Source: Omphalotus guepiniiformis (lineage: Eukaryota > Basidiomycota > Agaricomycetes > Agaricales > Omphalotaceae). From it: a stretch of DNA of 64,000 nt. The stretch lies in contig JAQOOI010000019.1 of assembly GCA_028554645.1 (NCBI GenBank), forward strand, positions 248,001 through 312,000, given 5' to 3'. The notes under the pieces are model-generated. The model was not told the origin of the DNA, searched no databases, and saw only the letters and a list, made by a program, of their open reading frames with translations. The translations under genes were made by a program, and so were the position numbers. How positions within the stretch are numbered: position 1 is the first letter of the stretch; each line of letters opens with the position of its first letter. Below, one piece after another: positions 11,579-46,137 of this stretch.

Positions 11579-11974
11579 ATGCAGACCAAACTCTTTGCTC
11601 TTATCTCTCTCGTACTGGCTGTGACTGTAGCAGCCGCACCCGCACCCGTCGATACGGTAATCACACTCCTGTTCCCCACTTACACTCTTGACTGAGGGAT
11701 TCCAAATGTTCCCAAAGCGCTCTCCACAGCTTGATGGCATAAACGTTCTTTGGGTGCCAAACCCAGGTCACGACAGCATGAATTCCGCGAATTGAACCGC
11801 GTATTAGTAAGTGCTTCAACTCGTACATTTAGTTAGCTGAGGAACTGACCCTTGTTCAGGCGGATCACACAGTGTGTCTTCCGTATGTCGTGTCCATGTC
11901 CTCTTTTCGGTATTACTGTCATTCTTAATGCACTCTCATTACAGGTTGCAGTTGATGAAATCGACGTTCGTTGA
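11579..11974 (+). pseudogene. P1, decayed secreted peptide precursor
   Basis: Exon 1 (11579-11656) encodes an intact signal peptide (MQTKLFALISLVLAVTVAAA). Exon 2, which normally carries the dibasic site, is not recognisable. An exon-3-like segment near 11767 lacks its normal frame. The last exon after an acag acceptor reads VAVDEIDVR and stops, without Cys or Trp. The signal-peptide exon is conserved but the product probably is not functional. Confidence 0.65.
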
Positions 11975-12109
11975 GAACGTCTCGCTATTAGAAGAGTCGA
12001 TCATGTCAATGGTAGTACAATTACGGTGGATTGCGCCAAGGGCTGTATCTAGCTTTCGTCGAAGGTCTCGCCACTGTAGATTCAAATCCGAGAGATAATT
12101 TCTTAGAAT

Positions 12110-12250
12110 ATCAGGGCTCTATGCGCTTGAATATGAGGGTTTCGTAGAGGGAAAACAATTAAGTAAAGTGAGAAATTAAAAGTCGAACGCGTAGCGCCCA
12201 CCGCCTATATGCGGGTAAATGCGCAGAGCGCGCAAAAAGTGACCGGCGCC
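12110..12250. repeat. Cluster flank repeat, left copy
   Basis: About 130 bp downstream of P1 (cgcttgaatat, gtagcgcccac, gcgggtaaa) matches 46440-46565 downstream of P12 in the same order with substitutions. It appears to be the ancestral 3' end of the UstYa-peptide unit. Confidence 0.7.
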
Positions 12251-12341
12251 TTTCTTTCTTCAACGCTCCACTCATTCTCTGACACCGCGAATGTAGCTTT
12301 TCTCCACCTCGTCGCTGTATGTCAAAATAATACAACAATCT

Positions 12342-13429
12342 TCAATCTCGCTGAAAATGGTCTACATGATAAACTGGAATCGAAATATCATCAGGTATCC
12401 GAACGGTTGGATCATAATCATCAAGCAAAACGCGTTCCTTCGCCCAGCTATGGACTTTCGTGAAATCTCGACAAGTATGTGCGATGTCTCCTCTGACAAT
12501 ACTCTTATTGAGACTTTCTGCCCATTGCCAGCTACATAATAAGATCAATATCACGGTCAACACATCGTCATTTTGAACTTGAAGAACGCGGAAAACGCAC
12601 ACTATCACACTTGTATCGGCGTGGCACATAATTGACTGTCTGATCCAGTCCACACAGTGACTGACGTGCTGGGCAGCAGTCGTTGAGTTTGTAATGTTCC
12701 AATCTGGATAATATTCTGGATCCAAAGCCTTCCGCACCATGTTCTGTATCAGCGTTGTCAGTCGCTGGTTCAACTAATGTGCGCAAACGGCGATCCTACC
12801 AAGCAGTGGAGGTTATGGAAAACATCAAGTTCAGCAATATAGTGGTCCTCGTCTCCCGGTATTGCGTGAGTCTTGTTTGGAAGCTGAGATGCTTGATCTT
12901 TTGTTACTCGCGATATACCAACTGAAAAATTTGTACTTCAGATATCGTGTTCTTCGAATTGCATTATGAGGAACGACCCACAGCCGTATAGATCTTCCCA
13001 AGCATTGTCCAGCTCAGGAGAGGATGGAACTTGGAATGATGACATGTCTCCGGGAAATCCAAGGGAGAACACTCTGACTTCAGGTTCTACCACTTCTAAC
13101 GCTGGCGCTGTATGTCGAATGATGAGTCTCATACGTGAAGACATGAAATGATCGCGCTTACAGTATAGTGTCGCTCCTAAAGGTTGCGAATGATGTTTTG
13201 TGCAACTGCCCTTGCGCATGTACAAAGCAGACACCGTTATACAGAGGAGAATTGCCTGAAGGGCGACGATTCCGACCAAGACTCGATACGTTGGCTTCAA
13301 CTTCCACCATACAGGATCTCTAGCTTCACTCGACTGAGATTCAAGCTCAAGTTTTACCCTGATACCCTCCTCTTCATCCTCCAGTGCGGCATCGGCCATG
13401 AGAGGACGATACTCTGTTTCGAAAGCCAT
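12342..13429 (-). CDS. UstYa-family (DUF3328) oxidase 1
   Basis: UstYa proteins are membrane-anchored copper-type oxidases that cyclise or hydroxylate fungal ribosomal peptides in the secretory pathway. Five exons (13429-13162, 13107-12982, 12921-12800, 12743-12601, 12531-12342) sum to 282 residues. The cytosolic tail is followed by one transmembrane helix at about 49-70 (VLVGIVALQAILLCITVSAL). Then come SSPELDNAWEDLYGFGISRV and two metal-binding HXXHC motifs, HNLHC (about 167-171) and HVSHC (about 198-202). The C-terminal HTCRDFTKVHSWAKER motif follows. Without the 60 nt intron after DLYG the gene looks broken by a stop; splicing it closes the frame, and all three copies share this intron. 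It is divergent from P2 across 471 bp. Confidence 0.9.
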
Positions 13430-13900
13430 GACTTCCGAGTCGTAGGAGTAATAGAATGGGGAGAAATTGGTGATTGGGGGCAACCTGAAAAGCAACTACT
13501 GTTCATACGACGCAGTCCTCCATCGTTCGAAGCTTCTCGGACATCTACGTACTAACCCCAATCAGATCCCGTGGGCCGTCTGCGACGAGGACGGATGCAA
13601 GAAGTCAACTTGCTGCACGATAAGGAAGACCATGAGGCCTTAAGGCTTCTGACTGTCGCTAAAGCGAGCTAGAGCTCACCGCACCGCAAACTATGGGTCG
13701 ACAGGAATCTCGCTGGATTTCTCCGCTTCTAAAGATATTCTATGTATTGGGAGCATTGACATTAAAACGAGATGCGGAAGGTCATATGTCTTCCGAGACT
13801 TGTGCGAGTGTACTCTAAATATAACGGTAAAAACAAACGAGAAGCATATAAGAACTGTCTGTCTTTGCAGGTCAATGTTATCCAGCATCTACATACTACT
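13430..13900. promoter_or_regulatory. Bidirectional UstYa-1 / P2 promoter
   Basis: 471 bp between two divergent start codons. It contains the conserved block ATGTCTTCCGAGAC, then GAGTGTACTC at 13806-13815, then a TATAAG box at 13847-13852, 49 bp before the P2 ATG. The same order occurs before P8-P12. Confidence 0.7.
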
Positions 13901-14386
13901 ATGCAGACCAAATTCTTTGCCTTTGTCTCTCTCGTACTGGCTGTGGTTGTAGCAGCCGCACCCACCGATACGGTAACTATCGCTCTATCTTCGTACCTAC
14001 TCTGCTCACTTATCTTTAAACGTATTATGATGTAGAACCTCCACAGCCGATCCATTGAAGAGGGCAAACGCGCTGCGTTGGAAATTGAGAATGTATGTTT
14101 CTTCGACTTTTCATTGACTCATCACAGACTTATGATGTCCTGCCAGGTTCCTGACAATTCTGACAATGCGAATTCCGAAAACGCGAACCCTGTAAACCCC
14201 GTAAGTGCATCGACTTGTAATGCGACGATCTTCTTGGTCAGGCGCGCCACCTGGCAGTGTCGGCATTACCATTTCGCGTCCTATGTAGTGCCATCTCTAA
14301 TGCACTCTTCATAGGTTGATGCCGTCAACTGTGTGTGGTGTTGGTTGCTGGGGCCCGGTGTAGAAGAGCAGAGTGTGTCTGAATAA
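13901..14386 (+). CDS. P2, secreted Cys/Trp peptide precursor
   Basis: Unrecognised family. Four phase-0 exons (13901-13972, 14036-14092, 14147-14200, 14315-14386) encode 84 residues. Exon 1 is a signal peptide (MQTKFFAFVSLVLAVVVAAA). Exon 2 is a pro-region with a Kex2-type dibasic site (SIEEGKRAALEIEN). Exon 3 is an Asn-rich linker (VPDNSDNANSENANPVNP). Exon 4 starts VDAV and continues NCVWCWLLGPGV with a short acidic tail. The C-x2-C-W core matches P8-P10. It is paired with UstYa-1, so a crosslinked secreted peptide is a reasonable inference. The product and activity are unknown. Confidence 0.75.
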
Positions 14387-14837
14387 TCGATAGTACTTAT
14401 ACGCTTTCGCTGTTGTCGTCGCTGTACCGAGAATGTATACTGATTCAAATATCATGCGAGAGATGTACATGAAATACCGAGAATGTTCCTCCCGACCTTA
14501 GCTTCGAGCGATGATCGATGAGTGCTCAGTGGCTTAGTATCATCAAGTTTTTGTCGATGGCAGAGCCCAGACCTGAAATCATCCTTTGGAAAGGAGAGGA
14601 GATACCGTTCCTGGTTAAGTGGTCGGATCCGAATAACAGAAGACAGAACAGGGAACCTTCTGTAGGATGAAGGAGAGCCGCACACTACCGCACAACGTGA
14701 CGGGGCGATAATCCATTGATTCTCGATTCTTTGGCTGTATCCTTAGGGTTTCCATCTCGAGCATTCGATGTCGATGAAAGCTTCAAGTTATAAATACTCC
14801 TTTCGCAAGTCCACATTCGCCAAGTTAAGTACCTGCC
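14387..14837. other. Spacer between P2 and P3
   Basis: Contains degraded spacer sequence also found near 18100-18280. No coding exon is seen. No UstYa gene accompanies P3. Confidence 0.5.
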
Positions 14838-15249
14838 ATGCACAAAACTTTGTTCGTCGCTCTCTTCGCCCTCGCATTGAGTGCGATTGTATCATCCACG
14901 CCCGTCGACACGGTGAGCGACATTCAGTCTTCGCATTTATTCTGTTGACTTAGTCTTTGAATGCATTTAGGACCTCCACAGAGACCGTCGATGCATTGAA
15001 GAGTACAAACGCGCTGCTTTGGCGAGTGTTCACATGTTGCTTTGGCATACATTGGAACCATAGACTTATGCTGTATCATCCTGTCAGAATACTAAGATTG
15101 ACAAAGCGAGTTCCGCAAGCACGAAACCCGTGGTAAGTGGGGCATGGGGAACTGATTTTCTTGGTCAAGCGCACTTTCCATTACAATCCCTAATGCAGGC
15201 TTCACAGGTTGATGTAGGAGACGCTGTATGGGTAGTATGTGATGAGTAG
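14838..15249 (+). CDS. P3, secreted Trp/Cys peptide precursor
   Basis: Four phase-0 exons (14838-14912, 14971-15027, 15088-15132, 15208-15249) encode 72 residues. The signal peptide (MHKTLFVALFALALSAIVSS) has diverged from the MQTKFF type. Exon 2 has the dibasic site (CIEEYKRAALAS). Exon 3 is NTKIDKASSASTKPV. The last exon is VDVGDAVWVVCDE, a W-x2-C core shared in style with P5 and P6. The exon 2 donor is GTTCAC, weak but positioned as in the family. No adjacent UstYa. Confidence 0.65.
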
Positions 15250-15779
15250 CTTGAATCTCAATAATACGGACGCGATGTATTCAAGTTGCGCGAAGGCTGT
15301 ATATAGCTTTCGTCCATGAATCGATGAAGCCCGGTCGCTGTAGAAATTCCGAGTTCGTGAACTGAATGAAATCATGAATCGAGAAGCATAAAAGGTCCCT
15401 TGTTCGAGGCGAAACGTGTCCCTTGTAATAAAAAGTGAATGAATGAACGAGTGTATAGAAACTTCGGACCGACATGAAGAGGTGACCGACGGGTTTGAGA
15501 TGAGCTACCCCGAGAACTACAGAGCGACTTTCAGAAGTAAATCGGAGTGCGGGTGCTCACCTGTGCGTAATTGAGAGTTGCGCTTGTGAAGTGAAGCAAA
15601 TCATGATTGAAAATCACGGTAAGACGATGGTTGAGCTGGGCTCACCGACCTTGAATTCAGTCCTAACTTCCTTGCAGCGTGCGAGTGAACGAGAAGTTTG
15701 AAAGGCTGTATTCTCGAATGTGGATCTGTACAGGAAAACTCGAAATCAGCACGGGGGATGCCCGGGATGCCCGGGATGC
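15250..15779. repeat. Spacer with short GC-rich tandem repeat
   Basis: No gene seen. At about 15756-15783 the 10-mer gatgcccggg is repeated about three times. Confidence 0.5.
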
Positions 15780-16095
15780 CCGGTTGGTACCTATGGAAGG
15801 CGAGGTTATCGGACTCTCGTTGTTAGACGGCTTCGAGGTTTCGCTGTCCCGCTCATCCTCGAAATCCTTCAAAGCTCTTCAGATGCTGGCTCCATTCCTC
15901 TACCGCCGCGTATCCTCTTAGCGCATCATCTGCACTAGACAGCGAGACCGCTACAGCCAAGATGATCTGTGAAGCTGGAGGTGGAGAAGGCGAAGCATAT
16001 ATGCGGTCAAACATGTGTTTAGTAAATCCTGACGCCGAGTAACCCTTGTTAGTTTCGCAAGGAGGCGAGAGTCCGCCAACATATGGAACATTCAA
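15780..16095 (-). pseudogene. IVY1-like 5' fragment, copy A
   Basis: Reads YASPSPPPASQIILAVAVSL and SSADDALRGYAAVEEWSQHL, matching exon 1 of the IVY1-like gene, then a piece of exon 2 (KPSNNESPITSPS). The first intron and flanking codons are deleted at the join. Stops and frame changes make it non-coding. The upstream repeat (ttttatttggtcttgcttgg) follows at about 16180. Confidence 0.8.
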
Positions 16096-16294
16096 AGCGA
16101 AAAATGAAAGAAAACGACCGAGAAATATTGAGGAGCATAGCATAGCACGGTACCAGATTGAGGCTTACTCAACGGACTTTTATTTGGTCTTGCTTGGAAT
16201 CAAAGCTCAGAATACCTATTTGAGAAACTACCCTTCTTCCGTCCAACTTCCATCTTCATCTCCGAGCCATTTCTTATCTTCGTATACCGTACGG

Positions 16295-16400
16295 TATGTC
16301 TTCAGTTGCTCTGAAGATGGTCTGAACGATACACGGGAATCGAAATCTCCGAACGGTTGGATCATATTGATCAAGCAAAACGCGTTCCTTCGCCCAGGCG
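16295..16400 (-). pseudogene. UstYa remnant 2 (C-terminal exon only)
   Basis: Carries WAKERVLLDQYDPTVRRF and the preceding bases, equivalent to exon 5 of UstYa-1. It is then joined directly to the sequence normally upstream of the UstYa start codon. All catalytic exons are deleted. It lies upstream of P4. Confidence 0.75.
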
Positions 16401-16924: not shown

Positions 16925-17341
16925 ATGCAGACCAAATTCTTTGCTTTTGTCTCTCTCTTTCTGGCTGTGGTTGTGACAGCGGTACCTGCATATACGGTGA
17001 TTATCGCTCTTTCTTTGTACTCACTCTGTTGACTAAGTTTTTGAACGGACCCTGATGCAGAATCTCCATGTCAGCCGATCTCTTGAAGAGAGCAAACGTG
17101 CTACGTTGGAAGTTGTGAGTGCATGTGCCTTTATTAAACCACAGATTCATGATATGATGCCCTGCCAGATTCCTGACAATGCTAAATCCGCAAAAGTGAA
17201 CCCGGTAAGTGCATAGCTAAGGAAGTGACCTTGGCCAGGAGGGCCAAGTAGCCTTGTCTTCTGTATCTCTTATCTGAAATTTCTATGTTCCTAATACACT
17301 GTTCATAGGTTGACGAGGCCTTTTTATGTTGGCCATGTTAA
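16925..17341 (+). CDS. P4, secreted Cys/Trp peptide precursor
   Basis: Four phase-0 exons (16925-16996, 17061-17114, 17169-17204, 17309-17341) encode 64 residues. They are a signal peptide (MQTKFFAFVSLFLAVVVTAV), a pro-region with KR (SRSLEESKRATLEV), a linker (IPDNAKSAKVNP) and a last exon VDEAFLCWPC. The core C-W-P-C has two cysteines two residues apart around Trp-Pro. A disulfide or an oxidative Trp/Cys link is possible but not shown. The partner UstYa has decayed to one exon. Confidence 0.72.
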
Positions 17342-18428: not shown

Positions 18429-18900
18429 ATGCAGACCAAGTTCTTTGTTCTCGTCTCTCTCGTACTGGCTGTGGCTGTAGCAGCCGCACCCGCCAATACG
18501 GTGACTATCGCTCTCTCTTCGTACCTCTCTGTTGACTGAGTGTTAAACGCATGATGATGTAGAACATCCGTGAAAGCCGATCCGTTGAAGAGAGCAAACG
18601 CGCTCCGTTGGAAATCGAGAATGTACGTGTCTATGGCCTTTCATGGAACTTGAACCACAGACTCATGCTGTACCATATTTCCAGATTCCTGACAATGCTA
18701 ATGTCGCAACCCCCAAAGTAAGTGCGCCACTGACTTATGCGGAACGAACTTCTGGTCAGGCCAGCGTCGCCGCGGAAGCACTATATCACGTCCACGGTCC
18801 TTTACTACTGGTATCACAGCTGTTCCTCACGCACGCTTCACAGGTTGATTGGGTGAATAATTGGTGGATATGCCACCCCGGATGCATAAATGAAGCCTAG
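18429..18900 (+). CDS. P5, secreted Trp/Cys peptide precursor
   Basis: Four phase-0 exons (18429-18500, 18563-18622, 18685-18717, 18844-18900) encode 73 residues. They are a signal peptide (MQTKFFVLVSLVLAVAVAAA), a pro-region with KR (SVEESKRAPLEIEN), a linker (IPDNANVATPK) and a last exon VDWVNNWWICHPGCINEA. This is the Trp-richest member (three Trp) with two Cys. No UstYa gene sits directly upstream, so modification would have to be in trans. Confidence 0.7.
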
Positions 18901-21875: not shown

Positions 21876-24525
21876 CTAATCTAACGCAAGCCAAAGCTCT
21901 AACAATTTCAAAAAATCAGGGGTACCCAGACCCGTAACAGGATCCCACCCAGCTACGGCGGTAAACCCTTCAGTCCCACAACCCTGGTTCCCTCCGGTCG
22001 TAATGTCATTGAAGGCGCATTGGAACGAAGAGTCGTATATCTAGAAAAGAAAAAACATTTTAGGACCCGCTGAGAAATTAAGGGAAAGAACATATTGTAG
22101 GATTAATAAATCCAACCGGAGACTTCCCAGCAGCGATACGAGCATCATTTATCATTGAAATCATTGATCCGATAACAGGTGTAGAGGCTGAAGTTCCGTA
22201 CACAAGTTCAAACTGTCCGACAAGCTGTCGACAAAATCGACAATCAAAACCAAGTATCAAAATCTGGAGATACTCGGAGACTTACAGCAACGATATAGTT
22301 GGCACTATAAGATCGAAGAAATTTAACCCGCGGATTGCTGCACAATAGGATAAGTAACTCACCCGTTGGCAGAAATGTCAGGATATCCTCGGCTCTACAC
22401 GTACGCAATGTACAAATCAGCCTCAACGCAGACACAAAATCATCAGCAAGAAACGCCAACTCACAGTGCCACTCGAGTTGTAAACAGAGGACGTAAAGTT
22501 GGATGTGCTCCAGGTGTCGAAAAACTGTGAAACCGCCGACTGCTGATAGCTGGGTATAGAGAAGTAATTGCTGAAGCCTCCACCGCTGTAAATGACTTGC
22601 TCGCAGGCGCTTTCGGAGTCTGAAACCGTGTTTCCGGGGGAGACTTGTGTCGCCTCGACAGTAGTTACGTAGGGACATGTACCCGGGAAGGAGGGGCTGA
22701 AGATTTTGCCGCTCATTGATTGAGAGCCTAACAGGTAAGAACGCCCGCGTCAATTTATGCATGTGGGAGGGATATTTAACGCATACCATCCGAGTTCAAG
22801 CATACTCCTCCGTAGCCTTCGCAAAAAAGTATGAAGAGTAGCTCAGGCGGGAAAGAGAATAAGGGATTTTACTCACCAGCTACACCGTCATCTCCTGAAC
22901 AATAAAGAACTGTCACGCCCATCAATCCGAGTTTAGCTTTGAACCAAATTAGCCGGTTACAGTAATATTATCCAAACCGGCCATACCATACTCATTGCAC
23001 TGACGAGCAGTGTAGAAAGGCGTGAGGTCTGCTTCGTTATAAAAATAAGAAGTCGATATAACGTATGCAGGAGTAACCGTTCCACAATCCTCGGCGCCTA
23101 ATGATTTACCATCAGCACTGTTAATCAATTTGTGAATACTCGCAATGACGCTCGCATACCTTTATAACCTCCGGGGGCAGGATCAGGATAAACAGCATCT
23201 TGTGTTAAATCGTCACCTCCATCGTACGTGCAGTAAGAGCCATCGAGAGCATCGAGGAGGTTATTGAAAGATGCACCTTCAAAAAGATGAAATTGATTCT
23301 AGAAGATATCGGGATGCGGCCTAGACAAACCTTCTTGAAGATCTCCGACTTGATAGAGGGAGATATTCAGCCCTGAAGTCACGAGTGCCATCGCATATTG
23401 AAGGTCCAGGTCAGGTTCGCCCTCATAAGCGAAACTTTCGTTCAGCGTTTGTTGGAAACCTACATTTTTGGGCAAGACATTATGATCTTCATTTGTGAGA
23501 GTTGAGTGATGAGAAAATATTGTACATACCTCCGTCAATTGATACTTGAATTGGGGGCTTGCCAACCAAATCTGGTGCGTATTCCGCAAAGAATTTGTCT
23601 AGATCAGATTGGAGGAACGCCTCGGGTGTATATTCGACTGTAAAAGACCTTTCAATGGGCTGGACCACATATATCAAAAGAGATACACTCACCAATGCCA
23701 TAACTATTGGTAGAAGATACCGGGGTATAATGGAAGTTGTACAACGCTCGCAAGCAGGCAACCGTTATTTGCTTGTCACAATTGCTTGTGTCGTCCGCGC
23801 TAGAAAGTATCTCGACTGCTCCAATTGATTTCGGTCCATTTTTGAACGAGGGTCGACCAACATCCTTCGCAGCACGTTCCTTCGAACGTTTACCAAGAAT
23901 ACTGTTAAAGTGAACGGATGGTGTGACGAGATCGACGTGTGAGGAAACATGCGAGGGCAGGTGATATTCGTCACAAGCTAAGAACAATTAAGTTGATATC
24001 AAAACTTAGTATATGTAGAAAATGTAAGAACGAGAACTCACCGATATGCTCTTGTCCAGTTTCGTGAGAGTAGACATGATATTCGGTAGACAGCAATTCC
24101 TCTGCTTCAGCCACGGTTGCATTAACTTCGATCCAACCCTTAGTTGGCGTCATCCGGAGTCGCTCAACGGAAATTCCACTCCCAACTAGCCACCCATGCA
24201 CCGTGCTGATACTTTCGTCGCTCGGAGCAAACGTAGCAGCAATTTTAGAAGGCGACCAATGGTTTCCGTAGTTGGCAGAGCCAGGGCGCGAGACATCTAG
24301 GAGGAACTCCTCGATAGCGTCAATGTTGGATTGTTTCAACCCGAAACGCAAGGGAAGGACTGCAGAGGGGTCATATCTTCGTGCTCGAAGCCATCCAGAA
24401 GGTGTGTGCGCGCGCTTCTCGTGCAGGACGTATGGAGAGAGCACCGCAGAGGGCCCACTGGCAAGAGAGCCAGGAACGACCAGACCAGACAGGATGGAAA
24501 CAGTCAAGACCAGTGAATTCAACAT
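21876..24525 (-). CDS. Sedolisin 1 (S53 tripeptidyl-peptidase-like)
   Basis: Secreted acid serine-carboxyl protease, made as a pro-enzyme. It has at least ten exons on the minus strand. The signal peptide ([20 protein letters not shown]) is followed by a pro-domain (pro-kumamolisin type: [20 protein letters not shown]). Catalytic motifs: Glu/Asp in [14 protein letters not shown] (near 23410), the oxyanion Asp in SGDDGVAG (near 22890) and Ser in YGTSASTPV (near 22190). The calcium-site end is [16 protein letters not shown] before the stop at 21876-21878. I found no frame break. It is a diverged relative of sedolisins 2 and 3. In this cluster it could trim or release secreted peptides; that role is inferred from position only. 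Confidence 0.9.
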
Positions 24526-26079: not shown

Positions 26080-26401
26080 TCAGTTTCACTGAAGATACTC
26101 TGCATGTAGGAGCTCGGGAGTGGCGATATCATCCTCTATTTGAACGGGTCTGGACTTTTGACGACAGGCTGATGTTGTGTGCAACCGCCCTTGCGCATAT
26201 ACAAAGCAGACAACGTTATGCAGAGGAGAATTGCTTGAAGGGCGACGATTACGACCAGGACTCGGTACGTTGGCTTCAGCTTCCGCCATAAAGTGCTTTA
26301 GTTTCACTCTACTGAAACTCAAGTTTGACTCTGATACCCTCCTCTTCATCCTCCAGTGCGGCATCGGCCATGAGAGGACGATACTCTGTTTCGAAAGCCA
26401 T
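26080..26401 (-). pseudogene. UstYa remnant 3 (internal deletion)
   Basis: Keeps the start, most of exon 1 including sequence for the transmembrane region, and the last about 20 codons (VQIEDDIATPELLHAEYLQ). Everything between is deleted, including both HXXHC motifs. The reading frame is shifted in exon 1. It is 414 bp divergent from P8. Confidence 0.8.
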
Positions 26402-27931: not shown

Positions 27932-30571
27932 TCAATCTAACGCAAGCCAAAGATCTAACAGTTTCGAGAAATCAGGAGTGCCCAAACCTGTAACAGGATC
28001 CCATCCAGTTACAGCAGTGAACCCTTCAGTTCCACAACCCTGATTCCCTCCAGTCGTAATATCATTGAAGGCGCATTGGAATGAAGAGTCATATATCTAG
28101 AGGGTACATGTCAACAATCGCTGAGAAATTAAGGGAAAAACATATTGTAGGATTGATAAATCCAACTGGAGCTTTCCCAGCAGCAATACGAGCATCATTT
28201 ATCATTGATATCATTGATCCGACGACAGGCGAAGAGGCGGAAGTTCCGTAAACAAGTTCAAACTGTCCGATAATCTAGATGACGAAATCGACAATCAAAA
28301 TCAGAAGTTGAAGTCTGGAGATACTCAGAGACTTACGGCAACGACATAGTTTGCACTATAAGATCGAGAGAATTTAGCACGCGGATTGTTGTGCAACATG
28401 ATAAGAAACTCACCCGTTGGCAGAAATGTCAGGATATCCTCGACTCTGCAAGTAATGTCCAAATCAGCCTCACCGGAAAAGACGAAATCATCAACAGGAA
28501 GCCAACTCACAGTACCAGTCGAGTTGTAAACAGAAGACGTAAAGTTCGACGTGCTCCAGGTGTCGAAGAAATGTGAAACGGCTGACTGCTGGTAATTGGG
28601 TATGGAGAAGTAATTGCTGAAACCTCCACCACTGTAAATGACTTGCTCGCAGGCGCTTTCGGGGTCTGAGACTGTGTTTCCGGGGGAGACTTGGGTCGCG
28701 CCGACAGAGGTTACGTAGGGACAAGTACTTGGGAAGGAGGGGTTGAAGAACTTGCCGCTCGTTGATTGGGAGCCTAACAAATACCAAGACATCCGCGTCA
28801 ATTTGTGTATGTGGAGGAGTTATACAACACATACCATCTGAGTTCAAGCATAATCCGTCGTTACCTTCACAAGTGAAGGGTATAAATTAGCTCAGGTGGA
28901 AAAGGCAATAGGAGTGTTGTGCTCACCAGCTACACCATTATCTCCTGAAGAATAAAGAACCGTCACGCCCATTAATCCGAGTTTGGCTTTGAACTAAATC
29001 AGCGGGTAACAATATTATGATTCGAGACAGCCATACCATACTCATTGCACTGACGAGCAGCGTAGAAAGGTGTAAGGTATGCTTCGTTAGCCCCATAAGA
29101 AGTCGATATAACATATGCAGGAGTGACCGTTCCACAATCCTCTACACCTAATGATTATGTTTTGGAATCAGAATATAGTCCGTGAATACTCGCAATGACA
29201 TACCTTTATAACCTCCAGAGGCAGGATCAGGATAGACAGCATCTTGTGATGAATCGTCACCTCCATCGAACGTGCAGTACGAACCATCGAGAGCATCGAG
29301 GAAGTTATTGAAAGATGCATCTTCAAACAAGATGAGATTGATTCTAGAAAATATCGGGATGGGGACTAGACAAACCTTCTTGAAGATCTCCGACTTGATA
29401 GAGGGAGATATTCAGCCCTGAAGTCACAAGTGCCATCGCATATTGAAGATCCAGGTCAGGTTCGACCTCATATGCGAAACTTTCGTTCAGCGTTTGTTGG
29501 AAACCTACATTTTTGGACAAGCATTTTAATCTTCATTTGTGAAAGTTGAAAGGACAAAATATTGTACGTACCTCCATCAATTGAAACTTGAATTGGTGGC
29601 TTGCCAACCAAATCTGATGCGTATTCCGCAAAGAATATATCCAGATCGGATTGAAGGAACGCTTGGGGTGTGTACTCAACTGTGCGACAAATATTCAACG
29701 GGCGCGACTACATATATCAAAAAGATAGACTCAACAATACCATAACTATTGGTAGAAGATACCGGGGTGTAATAAAAGTTGTACAGCGCTCGCAAGCATG
29801 CAACCGTTGTTTGCTTGTCACAATTGCTTGTGTCGTCCGCGCTAGCAAGGATCTCAACTGCTCCAGTTGATTTCAGTCCATTTCTGAACGAGAGTTGACC
29901 AACATCCTTCGCAGCAGATTCGCTCGAACGTTTACCAAGAATGCTGTTGAAGTGAACGGATGGTGTAACGAGGTCGACGTGTGAGGAGACATGCGAAGGC
30001 AGGTGATATTCGTCACAAGCTAATACCAATAAAGTTGATATCAGAACTTAGCATATGTAAAATATGTAAGTGAATGCGAGAACTCACCGATATGCTCTTG
30101 TCCAGTTTCGTGCGAGTAGACATGATATTCGGTAGACAGCAGCTCTTCAGCTTCAGCAACGGTTGCATTAACTTCGATCCAACCTTTCGTCGGCGTTATC
30201 CGGAGTCGCTCAACGGAAATTCCACTCCCAACTAGCCACCCATGCACCGTGCTGATACTTTCGTCGCTCGGAGCAAACGTAGCAGCAATTTTAGAAGGCG
30301 ACCAATGTTTTCCGTAGTTGGCAGAACCAGGGCGCGAGACATCTAGGAGGAACTCCTCGATAGCGTCAATGTTGGACTGTTTCAACCCGAAACGCAAGGG
30401 AAGGACTGCAGACGGGTCATATCTTCGTGCTCGGAGCCATCCAGAAGGTGTATGCACGCGCTTCTCGTGCAGGACGTATGGAGAGAGCACCGGAGAGGGA
30501 CCACTGGCAAAAGAGCCAGGAATGACCAGACCAGACAGGATGGAAACAGTCAAGACCAGTGAATTCAACAT
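27932..30571 (-). CDS. Sedolisin 2 (S53 tripeptidyl-peptidase-like)
   Basis: Same exon plan as sedolisin 1: signal peptide and pro-domain ([20 protein letters not shown]), catalytic Glu/Asp segment ([18 protein letters not shown]), oxyanion motif SGDNGVAG (Asp retained, the next residue Asn instead of Asp), and catalytic Ser in YGTSASSPV. The C-terminal calcium motif is [14 protein letters not shown]. No frame break found. It is nearly identical to sedolisin 3, its partner in the tandem duplication. Expected extracellular or vacuolar acid protease acting on peptide N-termini. Confidence 0.9.
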
Positions 30572-32398: not shown

Positions 32399-32768
32399 TC
32401 AGTTTTGCTGAAGATAGTCTGCATGTAGGAGCTCGGGAGTCGCGATATCATCTTCGATTTGAACGGTCCGATCGAATTCACCATGTATGACTCGCTCTTT
32501 TGCCCAGGTCTGGACTTTTGACGACAGGCTGATGTTTTGTGCAACTGCCCTTGCGCATATACAAAGCAGACACCGTTATGCAGAGGAGAATTGCCTGAAG
32601 TGCGACGATTCCAACCAGGACTCGGTATGTTGGCTTCAGTTTCCACCATAAAGGAGCTGTAGCTTCACTCGACTGAGATTCAAGCTCAAGTTTTACTCTG
32701 ATACCCTCCTCTTCATCCTCCAGTGCGGCATCGGCCATGAGAGGACGATACTCTGTTTCGAAAGCCAT
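32399..32768 (-). pseudogene. UstYa remnant 4, with an open N-terminal frame
   Basis: From ATG at 32768 the frame is open for 96 residues. It has the conserved tail (MAFETEYRPLMADAALEDEE) and the transmembrane helix, then switches to sequence from the C-terminal exon and stops at 32478. Residues after the join are PVVKSPDLGKRASHTW. The HXXHC core is deleted, so no oxidase activity is expected, but a small membrane protein could be made. It is 414 bp from P9. Confidence 0.78.
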
Positions 32769-34298: not shown

Positions 34299-36938
34299 TC
34301 AATCTAACGCAAGCCAAAGATCTAACAGTTTCGAGAAATCAGGAGTGCCCAAACCTGTAACAGGATCCCATCCAGTTACAGCAGTGAACCCTTCAGTTCC
34401 ACAACCCTGATTCCCTCCAGTCGTAATATCATTGAAGGCGCATTGGAATGAAGAGTCATATATCTAGAGGGTACATGTCAACAATCGCTGAGAAATTAAG
34501 GGAAAAACATACTGTAGGATTGATAAATCCAACTGGAGCTTTCCCAGCAGCAATACGAGCATCATTTATCATTGATATCATTGATCCGACGACAGGCGAA
34601 GAGGCGGAAGTTCCGTAAACAAGTTCAAACTGTCCGATAATCTAGATGACGAAATCGACAATCAAAATCAGAAGTTGAAGTCTGGAGATACTCAGAGACT
34701 TACGGCAACGACATAGTTTGCACTATAAGATCGAGAGAATTTAGCACGCGGATTGTTGTGCAACATGATAAGAAACTCACCCGTTGGCAGAAATGTCAGG
34801 ATATCCTCGACTCTGCAAGTAATGTCCAAATCAGCCTCACCGGAAAAGACGAAATCATCAACAGGAAGCCAACTCACAGTACCAGTCGAGTTGTAAACAG
34901 AAGACGTAAAGTTCGACGTGCTCCAGGTGTCGAAGAAATGTGAAACGGCTGACTGCTGGTAATTGGGTATGGAGAAGTAATTGCTGAAACCTCCACCACT
35001 GTAAATGACTTGCTCGCAGGCGCTTTCGGGGTCTGAGACTGTGTTTCCGGGGGAGACTTGGGTCGCGCCGACAGAGGTTACGTAGGGACAAGTACTTGGG
35101 AAGGAGGGGTTGAAGAACTTGCCGCTCGTTGATTGGGAGCCTAACAAATACCAAGACATCCGCGTCAATTTGTGTATGTGGAGGAGTTATACAACACATA
35201 CCATCTGAGTTCAAGCATAATCCGTCGTTACCTTCACAAGTGAAGGGTATAAATTAGCTCAGGTGGAAAAGGCAATAGGAGTGTTGTGCTCACCAGCTAC
35301 ACCATTATCTCCTGAAGAATAAAGAACCGTCACGCCCATTAATCCGAGTTTGGCTTTGAACTAAATCAGCGGGTAACAATATTATGATTCGAGACAGCCA
35401 TACCATACTCATTGCACTGACGAGCAGCGTAGAAAGGTGTAAGGTATGCTTCGTTAGCCCCATAAGAAGTCGATATAACATATGCAGGAGTGACCGTTCC
35501 ACAATCCTCTACACCTAATGATTATGTTTTGGAATCAGAATATAGTCCGTGAATACTCGCAATGACATACCTTTATAACCTCCAGAGGCAGGATCAGGAT
35601 AGACAGCATCTTGTGATGAATCGTCACCTCCATCGAACGTGCAGTACGAACCATCGAGAGCATCGAGGAAGTTATTGAAAGATGCATCTTCAAACAAGAT
35701 GAGATTGATTCTAGAAAATATCGGGATGGGGACTAGACAAACCTTCTTGAAGATCTCCGACTTGATAGAGGGAGATATTCAGCCCTGAAGTCACAAGTGC
35801 CATCGCATATTGAAGATCCAGGTCAGGTTCGACCTCATATGCGAAACTTTCGTTCAGCGTTTGTTGGAAACCTACATTTTTGGACAAGCATTTTAATCTT
35901 CATTTGTGAAAGTTGAAAGGACAAAATATTGTACGTACCTCCATCAATTGAAACTTGAATTGGTGGCTTGCCAACCAAATCTGATGCGTATTCCGCAAAG
36001 AATATATCCAGATCGGATTGAAGGAACGCTTGGGGTGTGTACTCAACTGTGCGACAAATATTCAACGGGCGCGACTACATATATCAAAAAGATAGACTCA
36101 ACAATACCATAACTATTGGTAGAAGATACCGGGGTGTAATAAAAGTTGTACAGCGCTCGCAAGCATGCAACCGTTGTTTGCTTGTCACAATTGCTTGTGT
36201 CGTCCGCGCTAGCAAGGATCTCAACTGCTCCAATTGATTTCGGTCCATTTCTGAACGAGGGTTGACCAACATCCTTCGCAGCAGATTCGCTCGAACGTTT
36301 ACCAAGAATGCTGTTAAAGTGAACGGATGGTGTAACGAGGTCGACGTGTGAGGAGACATGCGAAGGTAGGTGATATTCGTCACAAGCTAATACCAATAAA
36401 GTTGATATCAGAACTTAGCATATGTAAAATATGTAAGTGAATGCGAGAACTCACCGATATGCTCTTGTCCATTTTCGTGAGAGTAGACATGATATTCGGT
36501 AGACAGCAGCTCCTCAGCTTCAGCCACGGTTGCGTTAACTTCGATCCAACCTTTCGTCGGCGTTATCCGGAGTCGCTCAACGGAAATTCCACTCCCAACT
36601 AGCCACCCATGCACCGTGCTGATACTTTCGTCGCTCGGAGCAAACGTAGCAGCAATTTTAGAAGGCGACCAATGTTTTCCGTAGTTGGCAGAACCAGGGC
36701 GCGAGACATCTAGGAGGAACTCCTCGATAGCGTCAATGTTGGACTGTTTCAACCCGAAACGCAAGGGAAGGACTGCAGACGGGTCATATCTTCGTGCTCG
36801 GAGCCATCCAGAAGGTGTATGCACGCGCTTCTCGTGCAGGACGTATGGAGAGAGCACCGGAGAGGGACCACTGGCAAAAGAGCCAGGAATGACCAGACCA
36901 GACAGGATGGAAACAGTCAAGACCAGTGAATTCAACAT
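34299..36938 (-). CDS. Sedolisin 3 (S53 tripeptidyl-peptidase-like)
   Basis: Duplicate of sedolisin 2 with the same signal peptide, pro-domain, [19 protein letters not shown] and YGTSASSPV motifs, and no frame break. Around 36225-36275 and 36470-36535 several bases agree with sedolisin 1 rather than sedolisin 2. This suggests gene conversion after duplication. HETGQEHI of sedolisins 1 and 2 reads HENGQEHI here. Confidence 0.9.
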
Positions 36939-38770: not shown

Positions 38771-39128
38771 TCAGTTTTGCTGAAGATAGTCTGCATGTAG
38801 GAGCTCGGGAGTCGCGATATCATCTTCGATTTGAACGGTCCGATCGAATTCACCATGTATGACTCGCTCTTTTGCCCAGGTCTGGACTTTTGACGACAGG
38901 CTGATGTTTAGTGCAACTGCCCTTGCGCATATACAAAGCAGACAACGTTATGCAGAGGAGAATTGCTTGAAGGGCGACGATTCCGACCATGACTCGGTAT
39001 GTTGGCTTCCGCCATGAAGGAGCTCTAGCTTCACTCTACTGAGATTCAAGTTTGACTCTGATACCCTCCTCTTCATCCACCAGTGCGGCATCGACCATGA
39101 GAGGACGATACCCTGTTTCGAAAGCCCT
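38771..39128 (-). pseudogene. UstYa remnant 5
   Basis: Same internally deleted structure as remnants 3 and 4. The start codon position reads AGG instead of ATG (gccctg on the + strand), so translation from the conserved start is lost. It is about 0.42 kb from P10. Confidence 0.75.
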
Positions 39129-40885: not shown

Positions 40886-41937
40886 TCAGTTTCGCTGAAG
40901 ATGGTCTGAATGATACACGGGAATCGAAATATCATCAGGTATGTGAATGGTTGGATCGTATTCACCGAGCATAATGTGTTCTTTCGCCCAGCTCTGAATT
41001 CTTGTGAAATTTCGACAAGTATGTGCGATGTCTCCTTTGATCATAGTCTTATTGAAACGTTCTTCCCATTGCCAGCTAATAAGAGCAATGTCAACACGTT
41101 GTTCCTCTTCAAAATGCGGATAACATACACTATCACGCTTGTATCAGCATGACACATGATTGACTGCCTGATCCACTCTACACAGTGACTGATGTGTAGG
41201 CTAGCTGTCGTGGAGTTTGTGATGTTCCATTCTGGATAGTATGCTGGATCCAAAGCCTTCCGCATGGTGTTCTATGTCAAGTTTGTCAAGTCGCTGGGAA
41301 TGCTGGGAACGCGGACTTACCAAGCAGTGGAGGTCGTGAAAAACGACAAGTTCTGCAACATATTGACCCTCGTCACCCGGGATTGCGTGCGTCTTGTTCG
41401 GAAGGTGAGATGCTTGCTCCTTTGTTATTCGCGATAAACCAACTAGAAACTCTAGCTCAGCTATCGTGTTCTCCGATTTGCAATATGAGGAGTGACCTAC
41501 AGCCGTATAGATCATTCCAAGCATTGTCCAGCTCAGGGGAGGAGGGGATTTGGAACTGTGACATGTCTCCAGGGAATCCAGTGTGAAAAACTCGGACTTC
41601 TGGTTCGACCACTTCTAAAGCTGGCGCTGCATCGTCTAATGATGAGTCTCAGGTGCAGACATGAAAGGACGTTGTGCTTACAGTACAGCATCGCGCCCAA
41701 AGGCTGATATTCTGTGCAACTGCTCTTGCGTAGACATAAAGCAGAGACTGTCATGCAGAGGAGGATTGCCTGAAGGGCGACGATTCCGACCAGGACTCGG
41801 TATGTCGGCTTCAACCTCTGCAATAAAGGAGGTTTGGCTTCACTCGACTCAGACTCAAGCTTGACTCTAATCCCGTCCTCTTCGTCCTCCAGGGCGGTGT
41901 CGGCAATGAGAGGACGATACTCTATTTTGAAAGCCAT
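40886..41937 (-). CDS. UstYa-family (DUF3328) oxidase 2
   Basis: Five exons (41937-41682, 41626-41501, 41442-41321, 41271-41129, 41075-40886) sum to 278 residues. There is a single transmembrane helix (VLVGIVALQAILLCMTVSAL), then SSPELDNAWNDLYGFGLSRI, then HXXHC motifs HDLHC (about 163-167) and HISHC (about 194-198). WQWEERFNK and HTCRNFTRIQSWAKEH follow. The 58 nt intron after DLYG (GTAGGT to TTTCTAG) is needed for an open frame. Exons 2-5 have the same lengths as UstYa-1. It is divergent from P11 across 432 bp. Likely role: oxidative modification of the P-family peptides in the secretory pathway. Confidence 0.9.
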
Positions 41938-42369
41938 GACTTCGTAGGAGTAATAGATTGGGGGGAAGCTGGAGATTCTGAAAAGCTGTACGATGAAGTC
42001 CTCACTTCTATCGATCAAGGCTTTACTTGGAGTTTACCAAACTCCGTAGACTTATCCGATGCGACGAGACCGGATGTATAACCCGCCCCTAACTTCCAAG
42101 CAACGCCACATCATGAGGAACTTGTCTGCGGAACTTCTGATTGTCACTGAGCCAAGCTAGAGCGCATTCAATGCGCAACATGGAGTGACAGAAAGTTCGC
42201 TGATATCTCCACTTCAATAGCGGGGAATGTATATCAGGAGAAGATACGGAAGGTCAGATGTCTTCCAGACCTGCGTGAGTGTACTCTAATGCTATAACAG
42301 TACAAGCAAAGCAGAAACATATAAAAACAGTCTATACAGCTCAATGTTCATTCATCTTCAGCTACTACT
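41938..42369. promoter_or_regulatory. Bidirectional UstYa-2 / P11 promoter
   Basis: 432 bp. GATGTCTTCCAGAC box near 42258, GAGTGTACTC at 42277-42286, TATAAAAA at 42320-42327, 43 bp before the P11 ATG. Confidence 0.7.
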
Positions 42370-42777
42370 ATGCAAACCAAATTCTTTGCTTTCGTCTCTC
42401 TCGTACTGGCTGTGGTTGTAGCAGCCGCACCCGCCGATATGGTATTTATCGCTCTTCCCTCGCACTCGCTCTGTTGACTGGGTTTTGAACGTTTATCATG
42501 ATGTAGAACCGTCGCGACAGCCGATCCATCGAAGAGACTAAACGCGCTGCGTCGGAAATCGAGAATGTATGTGTCTTCGACTTTTCGTGGAACCGCCGTG
42601 ACAAAATCATGGTGTGCCATCCCAGGTTCCTGATACTGCAAATTCCGCAAACGTGAACCCCGTAAGTCTATCAGCTTCTAGCTGAGGAGGCCAAGTAGTG
42701 TCTTCTGTATCTCTTATCCGTATGACTGATGTTCCTAACAGGTTGACGACCTTTTTGGAGGATGTTGGGTATGTTAA
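42370..42777 (+). CDS. P11, secreted Cys/Trp peptide precursor
   Basis: Four phase-0 exons (42370-42441, 42507-42566, 42626-42661, 42742-42777) encode 67 residues. They are a signal peptide (MQTKFFAFVSLVLAVVVAAA), a pro-region with KR (SRSIEETKRAASEIEN), a linker (VPDTANSANVNP) and a last exon VDDLFGGCWVC. Its first exon matches P8-P10, but exon 2 keeps the normal atgtag acceptor and the dibasic site, so it shows the ancestral state of that subgroup. It is paired with intact UstYa-2. Confidence 0.75.
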
Positions 42778-43936
42778 GGACGAGTGTCTTAATGAAAGAA
42801 GACCCGAATGATAGATACACGCCGGTGGATTGGATTGCGTCAGGGGCTGTATGGTAGCTTTCATCGCTGATGTCGTCGCTGTAGAAACTCCGAGCGATTC
42901 AAGTATACCGATTCAAGTCGTAACTAAATAAAGCATGACACAACAGTATGAGAGAGATGACACGAAATACCGAGACTGTACTTCCCTCCGATCTCAGGCT
43001 GCTCGGAATCGATAGTTTAGGGAGACTAACTTGAAGGCATTCGCCCGGATTTGGCTTCATGTGACTGTCCTTCATGTATTTCCTCTCTTTTTCTCTATCC
43101 TGATGACCAGGTGTTTCGATTCGTACTTCGAAAATACTTTGCCTTGGGTAAGGGGCCGCCTGTGATGCCACCGTGCCGGTAGCCGCTGCGGCTCATGGCT
43201 GCGAGCTTTTATTTGGACATGCTTGGAATCAAAGCTCAAGATAACGTGATTTTTATTCTGTAACATCGTCGGTCGCAACACTATTGATACCGCTTCAATG
43301 CAATGATATACGGCCCAGTTGGCGACAACAGAGCTATGCTGAAAGACTGCTCTTAATCTTTGAATCTCGGAGAAAAAGCATCGACTCGACAGGACTCGAC
43401 CAATTTGTGCTAATCCATAGAGTTTTCTCTTAAATCCCACTCCGCCATCAGAGGACGACAACAAACTTCACCTGTTATTGTGGAAGAAACCCGCTCTGCA
43501 CTAGATGCGTTACAGGGGGCAGGAGCTGGTCGGTAGTCTTCAAAGAATGCCCGGGGCGTGCAACTGGTATGTTGAATGTATTTTGAAAGGCGAAGGTGTC
43601 CTTACCTCAAGTCTCTGCAGCAGATACTGGTACATATTCAGTCATAAATAGAGTGTTTCGCTTGGTGAGCTGTTTCTCAGTTACCATTTTCTTGTCATCA
43701 TTCTTACCTCCAGCCAACGAGGCGACGTAGTAAGCAACGTAAATTTCTAGAAACTCAGAAAACACCGCTACTTCAGATGTAAAGAAGACACTTTATGGGT
43801 TATAAAGAAGACAAATAGAAAACGGAGGAGCTGCTCGCCACCATCGGCTCGGACGAGTCGAGCTTCCTTCCATCAAACAGAGAACATTGGGCGCTCATGC
43901 GCGACTTTCAACCCTGTATCGCAATCACAACAGTTT
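42778..43936. other. Spacer between P11 and UstYa-3
   Basis: Includes the IVY1-like upstream repeat at about 43205 and the spacer shared with 25350-26070 and 31650-32390. No gene. Confidence 0.55.
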
Positions 43937-45014
43937 TCAGTTTCGCTGAAGATAGTCTGCATGTAAGAGCTCGGGAGTCGCGATATCATCTTCTATTTGA
44001 ACGGTCGGATCGAATTTACCAAGCATAGCTCGCTCTTTTGCCCAGTTCTGGACTTTTGTGAAGTTACGACAGGTGTGTGCGAAGTTTGGTCGTGCAGCAC
44101 TCTGATTGCTATGCTTGTCCCATTGCCAGCTATTATGTCTTGTTAAAGTCGTTATTTCTGACAATGTGGAAGACGTACACCATCAAGCTTGTATCGGCGT
44201 GGCACATAGTTGATTGCCTCATCCAGTCTATACAGTGACTGATGTGCTGGGCAGCCGTCAGAGAGACTCCTGGACTCGCGCTCGCGTTTGCGATGTTCCA
44301 CTCCGGATAGTATACTGGATCCAAAGCCTTCCGTATCATGTTCTGTTGTCAGCGTTGTCTGTCAATTCGCTGATGAGTGTGCGCAGATGAAGATCCTACC
44401 AAGCAGTGGAGATTATGAAAAACATCAAGTTGAACAATATAGTGGCCTTCGTCTCCTGGGATTGCATGAGTTTTGTTCGGAAGCTGAGATGCTTGTTCTT
44501 TCGTTATTCGTGACACACCAACTAAAAAATCTGGCTTAGATACCGGTTTCTCCGATTTACAACACGAGGACCCACAGCTATATAGATCATCCCAGGCATT
44601 GTCCAACTCAGGCGAGGATGGAATTTGGAATGAAGACTCGTAACCAGGTAATCCACTGTAGAAAACCTTGACTTCGGGTTCTACCACTTCTAATGCTGGC
44701 GCTGCATTGTTTGGTGGTGAGTCTTATAGGTGAGGGCATGAGATGATGCTGATGATGCTGTGCTTACAGTACAGTTTCGCGTCGAAGGGCTGAGGTTTCG
44801 AGTAATCGCTCTTGCGCAGGAGCATCATGCAGAGGATTGCCGCCTGAAAGGCGATGATTCCTACCAGGACTCGGTATGATGGCTTCATCTTCCGCAACAA
44901 AGGGACTCCGGCTTCGGAGTCACTTGACTGAGGTTCAAGTTTGACTGTAATCTCTTCTTCGGACTCCAGCGCAGCATCCATCATGAGAGGATGATACTCT
45001 TGTCTGAAAACCAT
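43937..45014 (-). CDS. UstYa-family (DUF3328) oxidase 3
   Basis: Five exons (45014-44768, 44701-44576, 44521-44400, 44342-44179, 44129-43937) sum to 283 residues. The start is MVFRQEYHPLMMDAALESEE, then a transmembrane helix (VLVGIIAFQAAILCMMLL), SSPELDNAWDDLYSFGVSRI, HNLHC (about 160-164) and HISHC (about 198-202). The end is HTCRNFTKVQNWAKER. Exon 4 has a 21 nt insertion relative to the other two genes (ASASPGV region) just before the second metal motif. The 54 nt intron after DLYS is in frame and has no stop, so its retention would also be read through. It is divergent from P12 across 673 bp. Confidence 0.9.
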
Positions 45015-45687
45015 GACTTCGTAGGAGCAATGGATTTGGGAGAAACTGGAAATTTGGGGGGTAATATGGAGAGCAACTAAGTATGCTGTAGTTTTCACTT
45101 CTATCGACAAAGGCTTTTGCCTGAAGTTCACCGAACTCCGCACCGGAACTCCGGGATTCGTGAATTATCCGCGACGAGGCCGGATGCAGGAAGCCAACCC
45201 AGCGTGTGGTAGTACATGGCATTTTCAAGAATTAGTATTTCTACTAACTATCCTTGGAGACATCCATCGTCAGGTGTTTGTCCAAGGTGAATTACAAAGC
45301 AACCAGAGGCAATATTGTAACCTGGTTGAGGGAGGTTGAGGGTCACGATGTGTCTTAAACTGCATATCGTCCTAAGAATAGAAGATACCTTCATCGCACG
45401 CCCGACAAGGAAGCCTTCTGAACGATGAGGGAGGCGGCTGCAAAGCATCTGAGCCGAGCTAAAAGCGCGTTGCGCAACGTGGGGTAACAGTAACAGTAAT
45501 TTCGCTGCTTTCTTCACTCTAATGGCTAGGGAATTTCCATCTCGAATATTTGAGGAAAGAGCAAAAGTTCGGATGTCTTATGAGGAATGTGTGAGTACGC
45601 TCTCACGATAACAGTCGAAACGAGCGAGAAATCTATATAAGAACTCCCCATACAGGTCCAAATTATCATCCAGCATTCTCAGCTAGT
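45015..45687. promoter_or_regulatory. Bidirectional UstYa-3 / P12 promoter
   Basis: 673 bp. Ggatgtctta box near 45571, GAGTACGCTC at 45593-45602, TATATAA at 45634-45640, 48 bp before the P12 ATG. Confidence 0.65.
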
Positions 45688-46137
45688 ATGCAGACCAAGT
45701 TCTTTTCTCTCCTTTCTCTCGTCCTGGTCGTGGCTGTAACAGCCGCCCCCGTTGATACGGTGATTGACATTCGCTTTGCGCACCTCATCAGGTTTACTTA
45801 GCGATTCCACGCATATACTTAGAACCTTCACAGCGACAGCCCCCAGTCCACCGAGGACCGACCTGCCGCTTTGGAATCTGTGGATGTATGTGTCTTTGGC
45901 TTCTCATTGACTCACCAACTCATGATGTGCCGTCCTGCCAGGTTCCTGACAATACAAATTCTGCAAACCCCGTAAGTACAACAACTTTTACGCTGCAGGA
46001 TGATCTTTTTGGTCAGGCGCGCGCGGCCCGCCAGTACCATCATGGATATATCACTTCAATCACTGTTCTGAATGCACATTTCACAGGTTGATGAGCTCAG
46101 CAATCTTTACTATTGTATAGTTTGCTCTCAATGGTAG
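45688..46137 (+). CDS. P12, secreted Cys/Trp/Tyr peptide precursor
   Basis: Four phase-0 exons (45688-45759, 45823-45885, 45942-45971, 46087-46137) encode 71 residues. They are a signal peptide (MQTKFFSLLSLVLVVAVTAA), a pro-region in which KR is replaced by RP (STEDRPAALESVD), a linker (VPDNTNSANP) and a last exon VDELSNLYYCIVCSQW. The core has two Tyr, two Cys and a terminal Trp. It is the rightmost member, paired with the most divergent UstYa. Confidence 0.72.

Follow-up and report, generated by a model that had tools for sequence, protein, structure and literature searches.

The window analysed here, a stretch of 64,000 nucleotides (JAQOOI010000019.1:248001-312000; contig C19 of the analysis) in a genome of 42.5 Mb and 80 contigs, contains a family of small genes predicted to encode secreted peptide precursors, which are interleaved with genes for UstYa-type oxidases and S53 proteases. 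Twelve related small loci (P1 to P12), all of them on the plus strand, span positions 11,579-46,137, that is ~35 kb. A motif search found ten signal exons of the type MQTKFFAFVSLVLAVVVAAAP among these loci, and P3 has a signal exon of a related type (MHKTLF..., ATG at 14838). The exons of the whole genes encode, in this order, a signal peptide, a pro-region, an Asn/Pro-rich linker and a tail of 10-23 residues that starts with VD; every exon of these models comprises an integer number of codons. A preliminary description of this DNA had proposed that all twelve loci share such a four-exon layout. The family of twelve and its coordinates proved to be real, but all four family exons together with GT-AG introns are kept in five loci only (P2, P4, P5, P11 and P12), the remaining seven being decayed or lacking an exon.

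The five whole precursor genes are P2 at 13901..14386 (exons 13901-13972, 14036-14092, 14147-14200 and 14315-14386; tail VDAVNCVWCWLLGPGVEEQSVSE), P4 at 16925..17341 (exons 16925-16996, 17061-17114, 17169-17204 and 17309-17341; tail VDEAFLCWPC), P5 at 18429..18900 (exons 18429-18500, 18563-18622, 18685-18717 and 18844-18900; tail VDWVNNWWICHPGCINEA), P11 at 42370..42777 (exons 42370-42441, 42507-42566, 42626-42661 and 42742-42777; tail VDDLFGGCWVC) and P12 at 45688..46137 (exons 45688-45759, 45823-45885, 45942-45971 and 46087-46137; tail VDELSNLYYCIVCSQW). Four of them (P2, P4, P5 and P11) carry a Lys-Arg site, and P12 has no dibasic site. Each of the five genes holds one tail, with at most one dibasic site ahead of it, and a repeat scan of the window pieces 10,001-20,500 and 38,401-47,000 revealed no core repeat.

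Damage among the other loci takes several forms. P1 (11579..11974) retains a signal exon at 11579-11656 and a last exon from 11945 that reads VAVDEIDVR and has no Cys, its exons 2 and 3 being unrecognisable. P3 (14838..15249) has lost the family exon-2 donor, and its last exon, from 15208 (VDVGDAVWVVCDE), has one Cys. P6 (19645..19946) lacks exon 1; its exons 2-4 are readable with splice sites placed by eye and end in the tail VDIKDYIWACHFHA, again with one Cys. In the divergent locus P7 (21163..21462), a signal exon is followed by a pro-region with Arg-Arg-Arg, and no family last exon was recognised. The family exon-2 acceptor and Lys-Arg are gone from P8 (26816..27237; tail VDETNCGKCWYGPF), from its duplicate P9 (33183..33604), whose exons 2-4 are identical to those of P8, and from P10 (39552..39979; tail VDDADCMRCWFG). 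P1, P3, P8 and P10 can be read solely via shifted splice sites (P9 was outside that test), and the DNA likeness of P1 and P7 to other copies is confined to their 5' parts. A TATA-like box lies ~43-58 bp upstream of the ATG in 8 of the 11 loci that bear a start codon, the strict pattern missing P5, P8 and P9.

The family appears to be restricted to this locus. A DNA search of the genome with P2 hit nine places and a protein search with a composite precursor hit eleven, all of them inside the window, and dispersal elsewhere in the genome was rejected on these grounds. Proof that the small exons are pieces of a larger known gene had been named in the preliminary description as a finding that would overturn it; this possibility was likewise rejected, as no Pfam family was found for P2 and P5, the precursors scanned. 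An Rfam scan of the window gave no match at the gathering score.

Eight UstYa copies, all on the minus strand, accompany the precursors, and the earlier count of three intact and five broken genes held. The intact genes, modelled by hand with five exons each, are U1 (12342..13429, 282 aa), U2 (40886..41937, 278 aa) and U3 (43937..45014, 283 aa). They match Pfam UstYa with E-values of 6.2e-49 to 9.2e-53 and 167-180 bits against a cut-off of 25, and both motifs of HxxHC(x)nHxxHC are present in all three. Their pairwise ratios of nonsynonymous to synonymous substitution rates (dN/dS) are 0.23-0.32. U1 stands head-to-head with P2 (472 bp apart), U2 with P11 (433 bp) and U3 with P12 (674 bp). The five remnants, recognised by DNA comparison, are arranged in the same way: one at 10578..10892 faces P1 (687 bp), one at 16302..16399, of which only the 3' end is left, faces P4 (526 bp), and three that retain both 5' and 3' ends, at 26080..26401, 32399..32768 and 38771..39126, face P8 (415 bp), P9 (415 bp) and P10 (426 bp), respectively. 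Thus, the next plus-strand precursor locus begins 415-687 bp from each UstYa copy, with the spacers of remnants measured from the remaining edge. Because each of the eight copies is head-to-head with a precursor locus, we regard the divergent UstYa/precursor pair as the unit of this locus; P3, P5, P6 and P7 lack a UstYa partner. Opposite an intact UstYa gene, 3/3 precursors are whole, as compared to 2/9 of the other loci (one-sided p 0.045, the copies not being independent). In a protein search with U3, 108 of 578 candidates had E-values of at most 0.001, the best relatives being from Marasmius crinis-equi, Paramarasmius palmivorus and M. tenuissimus with 54-55% identity, followed mostly by Mycena; these relatives point to a marasmioid or mycenoid mushroom as the likely host. 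A search of solved-structure sequences with U3 gave no match.

To assess coding, we compared seven copies (P2, P4, P5, P8, P10, P11 and P12), leaving out P9, identical to P8 in exons 2-4, as well as P1, P3, P6 and P7. The lengths of exon 2 (54, 57, 60 and 63) and exon 3 (21, 30, 33, 36 and 54) are multiples of three in all seven, whereas intron 1 has six different lengths between 59 and 65 and the other two introns vary out of phase too. Since exon lengths stay in frame while introns do not, non-coding repeats were rejected as the nature of the family. Exon 1 is best conserved, with a pooled identity of 0.87 as compared to 0.74-0.79 for introns and 0.72-0.76 for flanks. The last exon has an identity of 0.73, which is at flank level, and becomes the lowest segment when gaps are counted (0.49). 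Pooled dN/dS is 0.35 for exon 1, 0.42 for exons 2 and 3 together and 0.29 for the last exon, where synonymous change is nearly saturated. Positive selection on the tail was rejected on account of the latter value, which is close to saturation and biased by the protein alignment.

In all seven copies, the last exon encodes exactly two Cys and at least one Trp, and exons 1-3 are devoid of both residues. The Cys spacing is CxxC in six of the seven (CVWC, CWPC, CGKC, CMRC, CWVC and CIVC) and CxxxC in P5 (CHPGC). When the last exons are read in the other two frames, at least two Cys appear for P2 only. The seven tails share ancestry and are thus not seven independent events.

Both duplication and exchange between copies have left traces at the locus. 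A tandem duplication relates 26134-33749 to 32495-40107 with 96.4% identity, the copies lying 6,367 bp apart. P11 is a mosaic, resembling P10 up to ~42678, that is the start of intron 3, and P4 beyond (0/1,000 permutations); the last exons of P11 and P4 share 94% identity. In a recombination test, 37 of up to 105 ordered triplets had a break at ≤2/1,000 permutations, these triplets being dependent and the counts uncorrected. With P11 as the query the break falls at 42678 and with P4 as the query at 17333, inside the last exon, so the P4/P11 breakpoint is not sharply placed. The P11 mosaic and the triplet breaks suggest that recombination between copies likely moves last exons between leaders. 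Two short P3-like stretches at 27460-27552, downstream of P8, and 33827-33919, downstream of P9 (72% identity over 97 bp), are, judging by their sequence, relics of further lost precursor copies.

UstYa genes elsewhere in the same genome provide an internal comparison. Nine stretches around other UstYa hits were examined for precursors by repeat and signal-peptide scans, and three of them yielded candidates. On C69 (L023, C69:191900-201899), the signal-peptide scan revealed a second one-core family of three genes, Q1-Q3 (6967-7235, 8360-8613 and 9321-9562, plus strand), each with two exons, a 62-bp intron and a leader unlike those of the window precursors. Their tails (...SRK-CDWW, ...TRR-ARGGGCEWW and ...RKR-AAEEAAPCIWW) all end in C-x-W-W right after a dibasic site and contain one Cys, and each leader also has one Cys in the first exon. 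The three genes lie at least 1.7 kb downstream of a UstYa gene whose Pfam score exceeds the cut-off; a second UstYa-like frame at this locus is weak (tblastn E 0.065). The 10-kb stretches on either side held no further Q copies. A genome-wide pattern search for C-x-W-W followed by a stop gave 4 matches as compared to 4 in the control, and the pattern was so narrow that it missed even the C69 genes.

The other two loci contain multi-core precursors with Kex2 repeats. On C65 (L020, C65:2601300-2611299), a gene at 1313-2172 on the plus strand encodes 138 residues with six LPQPDVVF-type cores, the first five of which are followed by a dibasic site. On C22 (L018, C22:2877500-2887499), a plus-strand gene at 7437-8630 encodes 148 residues with six IFAKDAWE-type cores, the core exons alternating with dibasic linker exons, one of which is uncertain. 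Both precursors have each core in a separate exon; the UstYa gene is head-to-head with the precursor on C22 and tail-to-tail on C65. Hence, UstYa goes with peptide precursors in this genome, and the one-core layout recurs in it with an unrelated leader and a Cys- and Trp-containing tail. The earlier statement that this locus has one core per gene instead of repeats is correct for the window genes; it is not the rule of the lineage, as C22 and C65 hold multi-core genes near UstYa. The remaining six stretches showed no clear precursor by these crude scans, and some signal-like exons remain. Among these are signal-peptide-like exons near UstYa genes at L022:3854-3958 (C79) and L025:1085 (C71), which could be further unannotated precursors. 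UstYa-like frames also lie by long arrays of 33-residue repeats at L019 (C78:1053600-1063599) and L021 (C65:2592900-2601299), a neighbourhood that thus occurs twice; these repeats were rejected as peptide cores since they look ankyrin-type, a label given by appearance.

Three S53 gene copies, as previously noted, occupy the middle of the window locus on the minus strand. S1 (21878..24525) was assigned by 87% DNA identity to S2 and an automatic gene model, its intactness being only partly checked. S2 (27932..30571) was recognised by DNA comparison and by its GTSAS motif. S3 (34299..36938) is 99.6% identical to S2, both lying within the tandem duplication, and its modelled protein matches Pro-kuma_activ with 2.8e-44. 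Matches to Pro-kuma_activ number at least 30 among those listed for the genome, counted exon by exon, and three are in the window; since the genome holds many other S53 genes, the link of the window copies to the peptides is weak, and they may be passengers. An M28 peptidase is also present. No methyltransferase or transporter was found among ten flanking open reading frames scanned, which cover the genes in part.

Taken together, these data describe a family of twelve loci with five whole four-exon genes, each providing a single tail with two Cys and Trp, and we consider it somewhat more probable than its alternatives combined that this tail is cross-linked by the UstYa enzyme encoded back-to-back with it. 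CctR, a UstYa family member, is a binuclear copper enzyme associated with the membrane, in which the HxxHC pair is put to use (PMC12435403), and a kingdom-wide survey states that DUF3328 proteins are required to cyclise the ustiloxin, asperipin-2a and phomopsin cores (PMC7329392). Precursor and UstYa would be co-expressed from the short divergent spacer, and the signal peptide would take the precursor into the secretory pathway. UstYa, with its N-terminal membrane stretch and two HxxHC motifs, would face the lumen, as expected from its family, and could there oxidise the Cys/Trp/Tyr-rich tail. Kex2 would cut after Lys-Arg in those four of the five whole genes that have the site, and removal of the Asn/Pro-rich linker would fall to a further protease, with the adjacent S53 genes as candidates. 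Novel peptides would come about via duplication of pairs, decay of old copies and recombination, for which the sequence provides evidence, rather than via repeats within a gene. The family thus likely represents dikaritin-like chemistry of ribosomally synthesized and post-translationally modified peptides (RiPPs) acting on one-core precursors whose number grows through duplication and recombination of genes. The preliminary description had likewise read the locus as RiPP-like, linked to UstYa and carrying a single core in each gene, and this remains the best reading, backed by the C69 family, although no more than five of the twelve genes are whole. Its account did not include the head-to-head pairing, the Cys and Trp rule of the last exon or the tandem duplication.

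Several observations weigh against this interpretation. P5 is whole though it has no UstYa partner, and P12 faces an intact UstYa gene yet has no dibasic site. The eight pairs are not eight events, because they partly descend from shared duplications. Damaged copies break the tail rule, P3 and P6 having one Cys and P1 none. When splice variants were enumerated, the family model scored best for P11 only; for P2, P4, P5 and P12 an alternative last exon outscores the family exon by 0.6-2.5, and we prefer the latter because it is homologous between copies. Two protein database searches with the precursors (12 and 2,668 candidates) found no resembling protein, a weak piece of evidence since such genes are likely unannotated. 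No tyrosinase lies on contig C19 among 30 PF00264 matches listed for the genome. Finally, the tail core lacks a second Kex2 site. The proposal that the precursors are processed by Kex2 agrees with Lys-Arg in four of the five whole genes, but there is no excision between two sites, and P12 has no Lys-Arg at all.

A two-Cys tail could also simply form a disulfide. The small genes might accordingly encode secreted, effector- or signal-like peptides with an ordinary disulfide loop, with UstYa acting elsewhere and the pair being kept by block duplication. For such a peptide the conserved feature of the tail, a Cys pair two or three residues apart, would need no special enzyme, the persistence of P5 without a UstYa partner would be no surprise, and a long linker rather than a Kex2-bounded core ahead of the tail would be unproblematic. 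However, a disulfide does not account for Trp in 7/7 tails and none in exons 1-3, nor for the association of whole precursors with intact UstYa genes, and on C69 an unrelated one-core family that has Cys and Trp too is found next to a UstYa gene. We therefore regard an ordinary disulfide peptide as unlikely, albeit as the alternative that survives best.

The enzymatic cross-link that we favour can be taken one step further. The UstYa copper enzymes might work on one-core Cys-Trp libraries in which each working gene has its own enzyme, making a Cys-Trp (tryptathionine-like) or Trp-centred cross-link. This would amount to a second, copper-based mushroom route to the bond type of the Amanita toxins, in which diversity comes from duplicated genes and swapped last exons rather than from repeats within a gene. 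This idea is speculative, and we would be rather surprised if it held in full. In the literature consulted, we came across no UstYa enzyme that acts on Cys or forms a Trp-Cys bond.

Alternatively, the locus might be the decaying relic of an old RiPP cluster that has lost its function, with a few copies left open by chance, as damage to 7/12 precursor loci and 5/8 UstYa copies would lead one to expect. However, three UstYa genes are intact and five precursors whole, the UstYa pairs have dN/dS values of 0.23-0.32, and a TATA-like box precedes 8/11 loci with a start codon, all of which makes a functionless relic improbable. That the small peptides serve the facing UstYa as copper(I) carriers or electron donors rather than as substrates would fit their CxxC tails and work on CctR (DUF3328), which needs copper and electron input and for which an accessory electron-transfer protein was suggested (PMC12435403), but it is very improbable, as carriers should be conserved while the tails vary strongly around the Cys pair, other UstYa loci of the genome have substrate-type repeat precursors, and the C69 tails hold one Cys only.

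The favoured interpretation, that is cross-linking of one-core tails by a paired UstYa, bears on how such systems are searched for. In the kingdom-wide survey, Kex2-processed repeat proteins (KEPs) are defined by at least three tandem repeats of at least eight residues between Kex2 sites, and UstYa-type neighbours were counted for 103/1,680 basidiomycete as compared to 1,647/5,372 ascomycete repeat proteins (PMC7329392). Since the survey demands no fewer than three repeats within a gene, the families of the window and of C69 escape it. The apparent shortage in mushrooms may thus be partly a search artefact, because one-core families fall outside the definition and their tiny exons are likely missed by annotation. 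In another basidiomycete, Pleurotus ostreatus, there are 16 UstYa-like genes, six of them developmentally expressed (PMC8893723). Searches of an open-access library turned up no account of UstYa and one-core genes in head-to-head pairs, nor of families of this kind; subscription journals were outside these searches. As a search rule, we offer a small gene that is head-to-head with UstYa and free of Cys and Trp until a last exon with two Cys and Trp, which can be applied to the marasmioid and mycenoid genomes carrying close UstYa homologues. One-core and multi-core layouts in a single genome moreover allow a direct comparison, modified peptides apparently being encoded in one fungus both by many genes with one product each and by single genes with repeats.

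Among known systems, the dikaritins are closest. As quoted in PMC12048977, a five-gene dikaritin cluster comprises a repeated-core precursor, multiple DUF3328/UstYa genes, a tyrosinase, a methyltransferase and a transporter or peptidase, and asperipin-type clusters also lack a tyrosinase. Like such clusters, the window has UstYa/DUF3328 genes next to secreted precursors that carry a signal peptide and a dibasic site, and a peptidase-type gene nearby. It differs in having one core per gene, many paralogues, cores with Cys and Trp where those of ustiloxin, phomopsin and asperipin are described as Tyr cores, no tyrosinase on the contig among the matches listed and a likely basidiomycete host. Of the five-gene definition, the window thus has the multiple DUF3328/UstYa genes, but neither the repeated-core precursor nor, among the matches listed, the tyrosinase. 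With the KEPs it shares signal peptide and dibasic sites, and the separate exon of its tail has a counterpart in the core-per-exon structure at C22 and C65; where KEPs have at least three repeats, every gene of the window and C69 families has a single tail. The C65 precursor, with six repeats, does agree with the KEP definition on inspection by eye. The window family is hence dikaritin-like in enzyme and leader, while its single core sets it apart from the repeated cores in both the dikaritin and the KEP definitions. The lichen DUF3328 clusters likewise have UstYa-type genes without a repeat precursor, for which a single core peptide was offered as one possible reason (PMC12048977); unlike there, the window has an identified precursor family paired with UstYa.

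Families of small one-core genes also exist in mushrooms as the MSDIN genes, whose precursors are not known to have a signal peptide and follow a prolyl oligopeptidase route. The window family is alike in its one-core small genes, but it is predicted to be secreted and is accompanied by UstYa. The amatoxin/phallotoxin-type products of Amanita and relatives have a Trp-Cys cross-link (PMC9233826), the bond type that the bolder proposal above would assign to a copper enzyme. In layout, the window precursors also resemble those of other, quite distant peptides. Conotoxin precursors consist of a conserved signal, a dibasic pro-region and one variable, Cys-bearing C-terminal peptide per gene, and the family grows by gene duplication. 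Thus, despite unrelated organisms and sequences, the same architecture is found here, with the difference that the window precursors are mostly paired with an oxidase gene.

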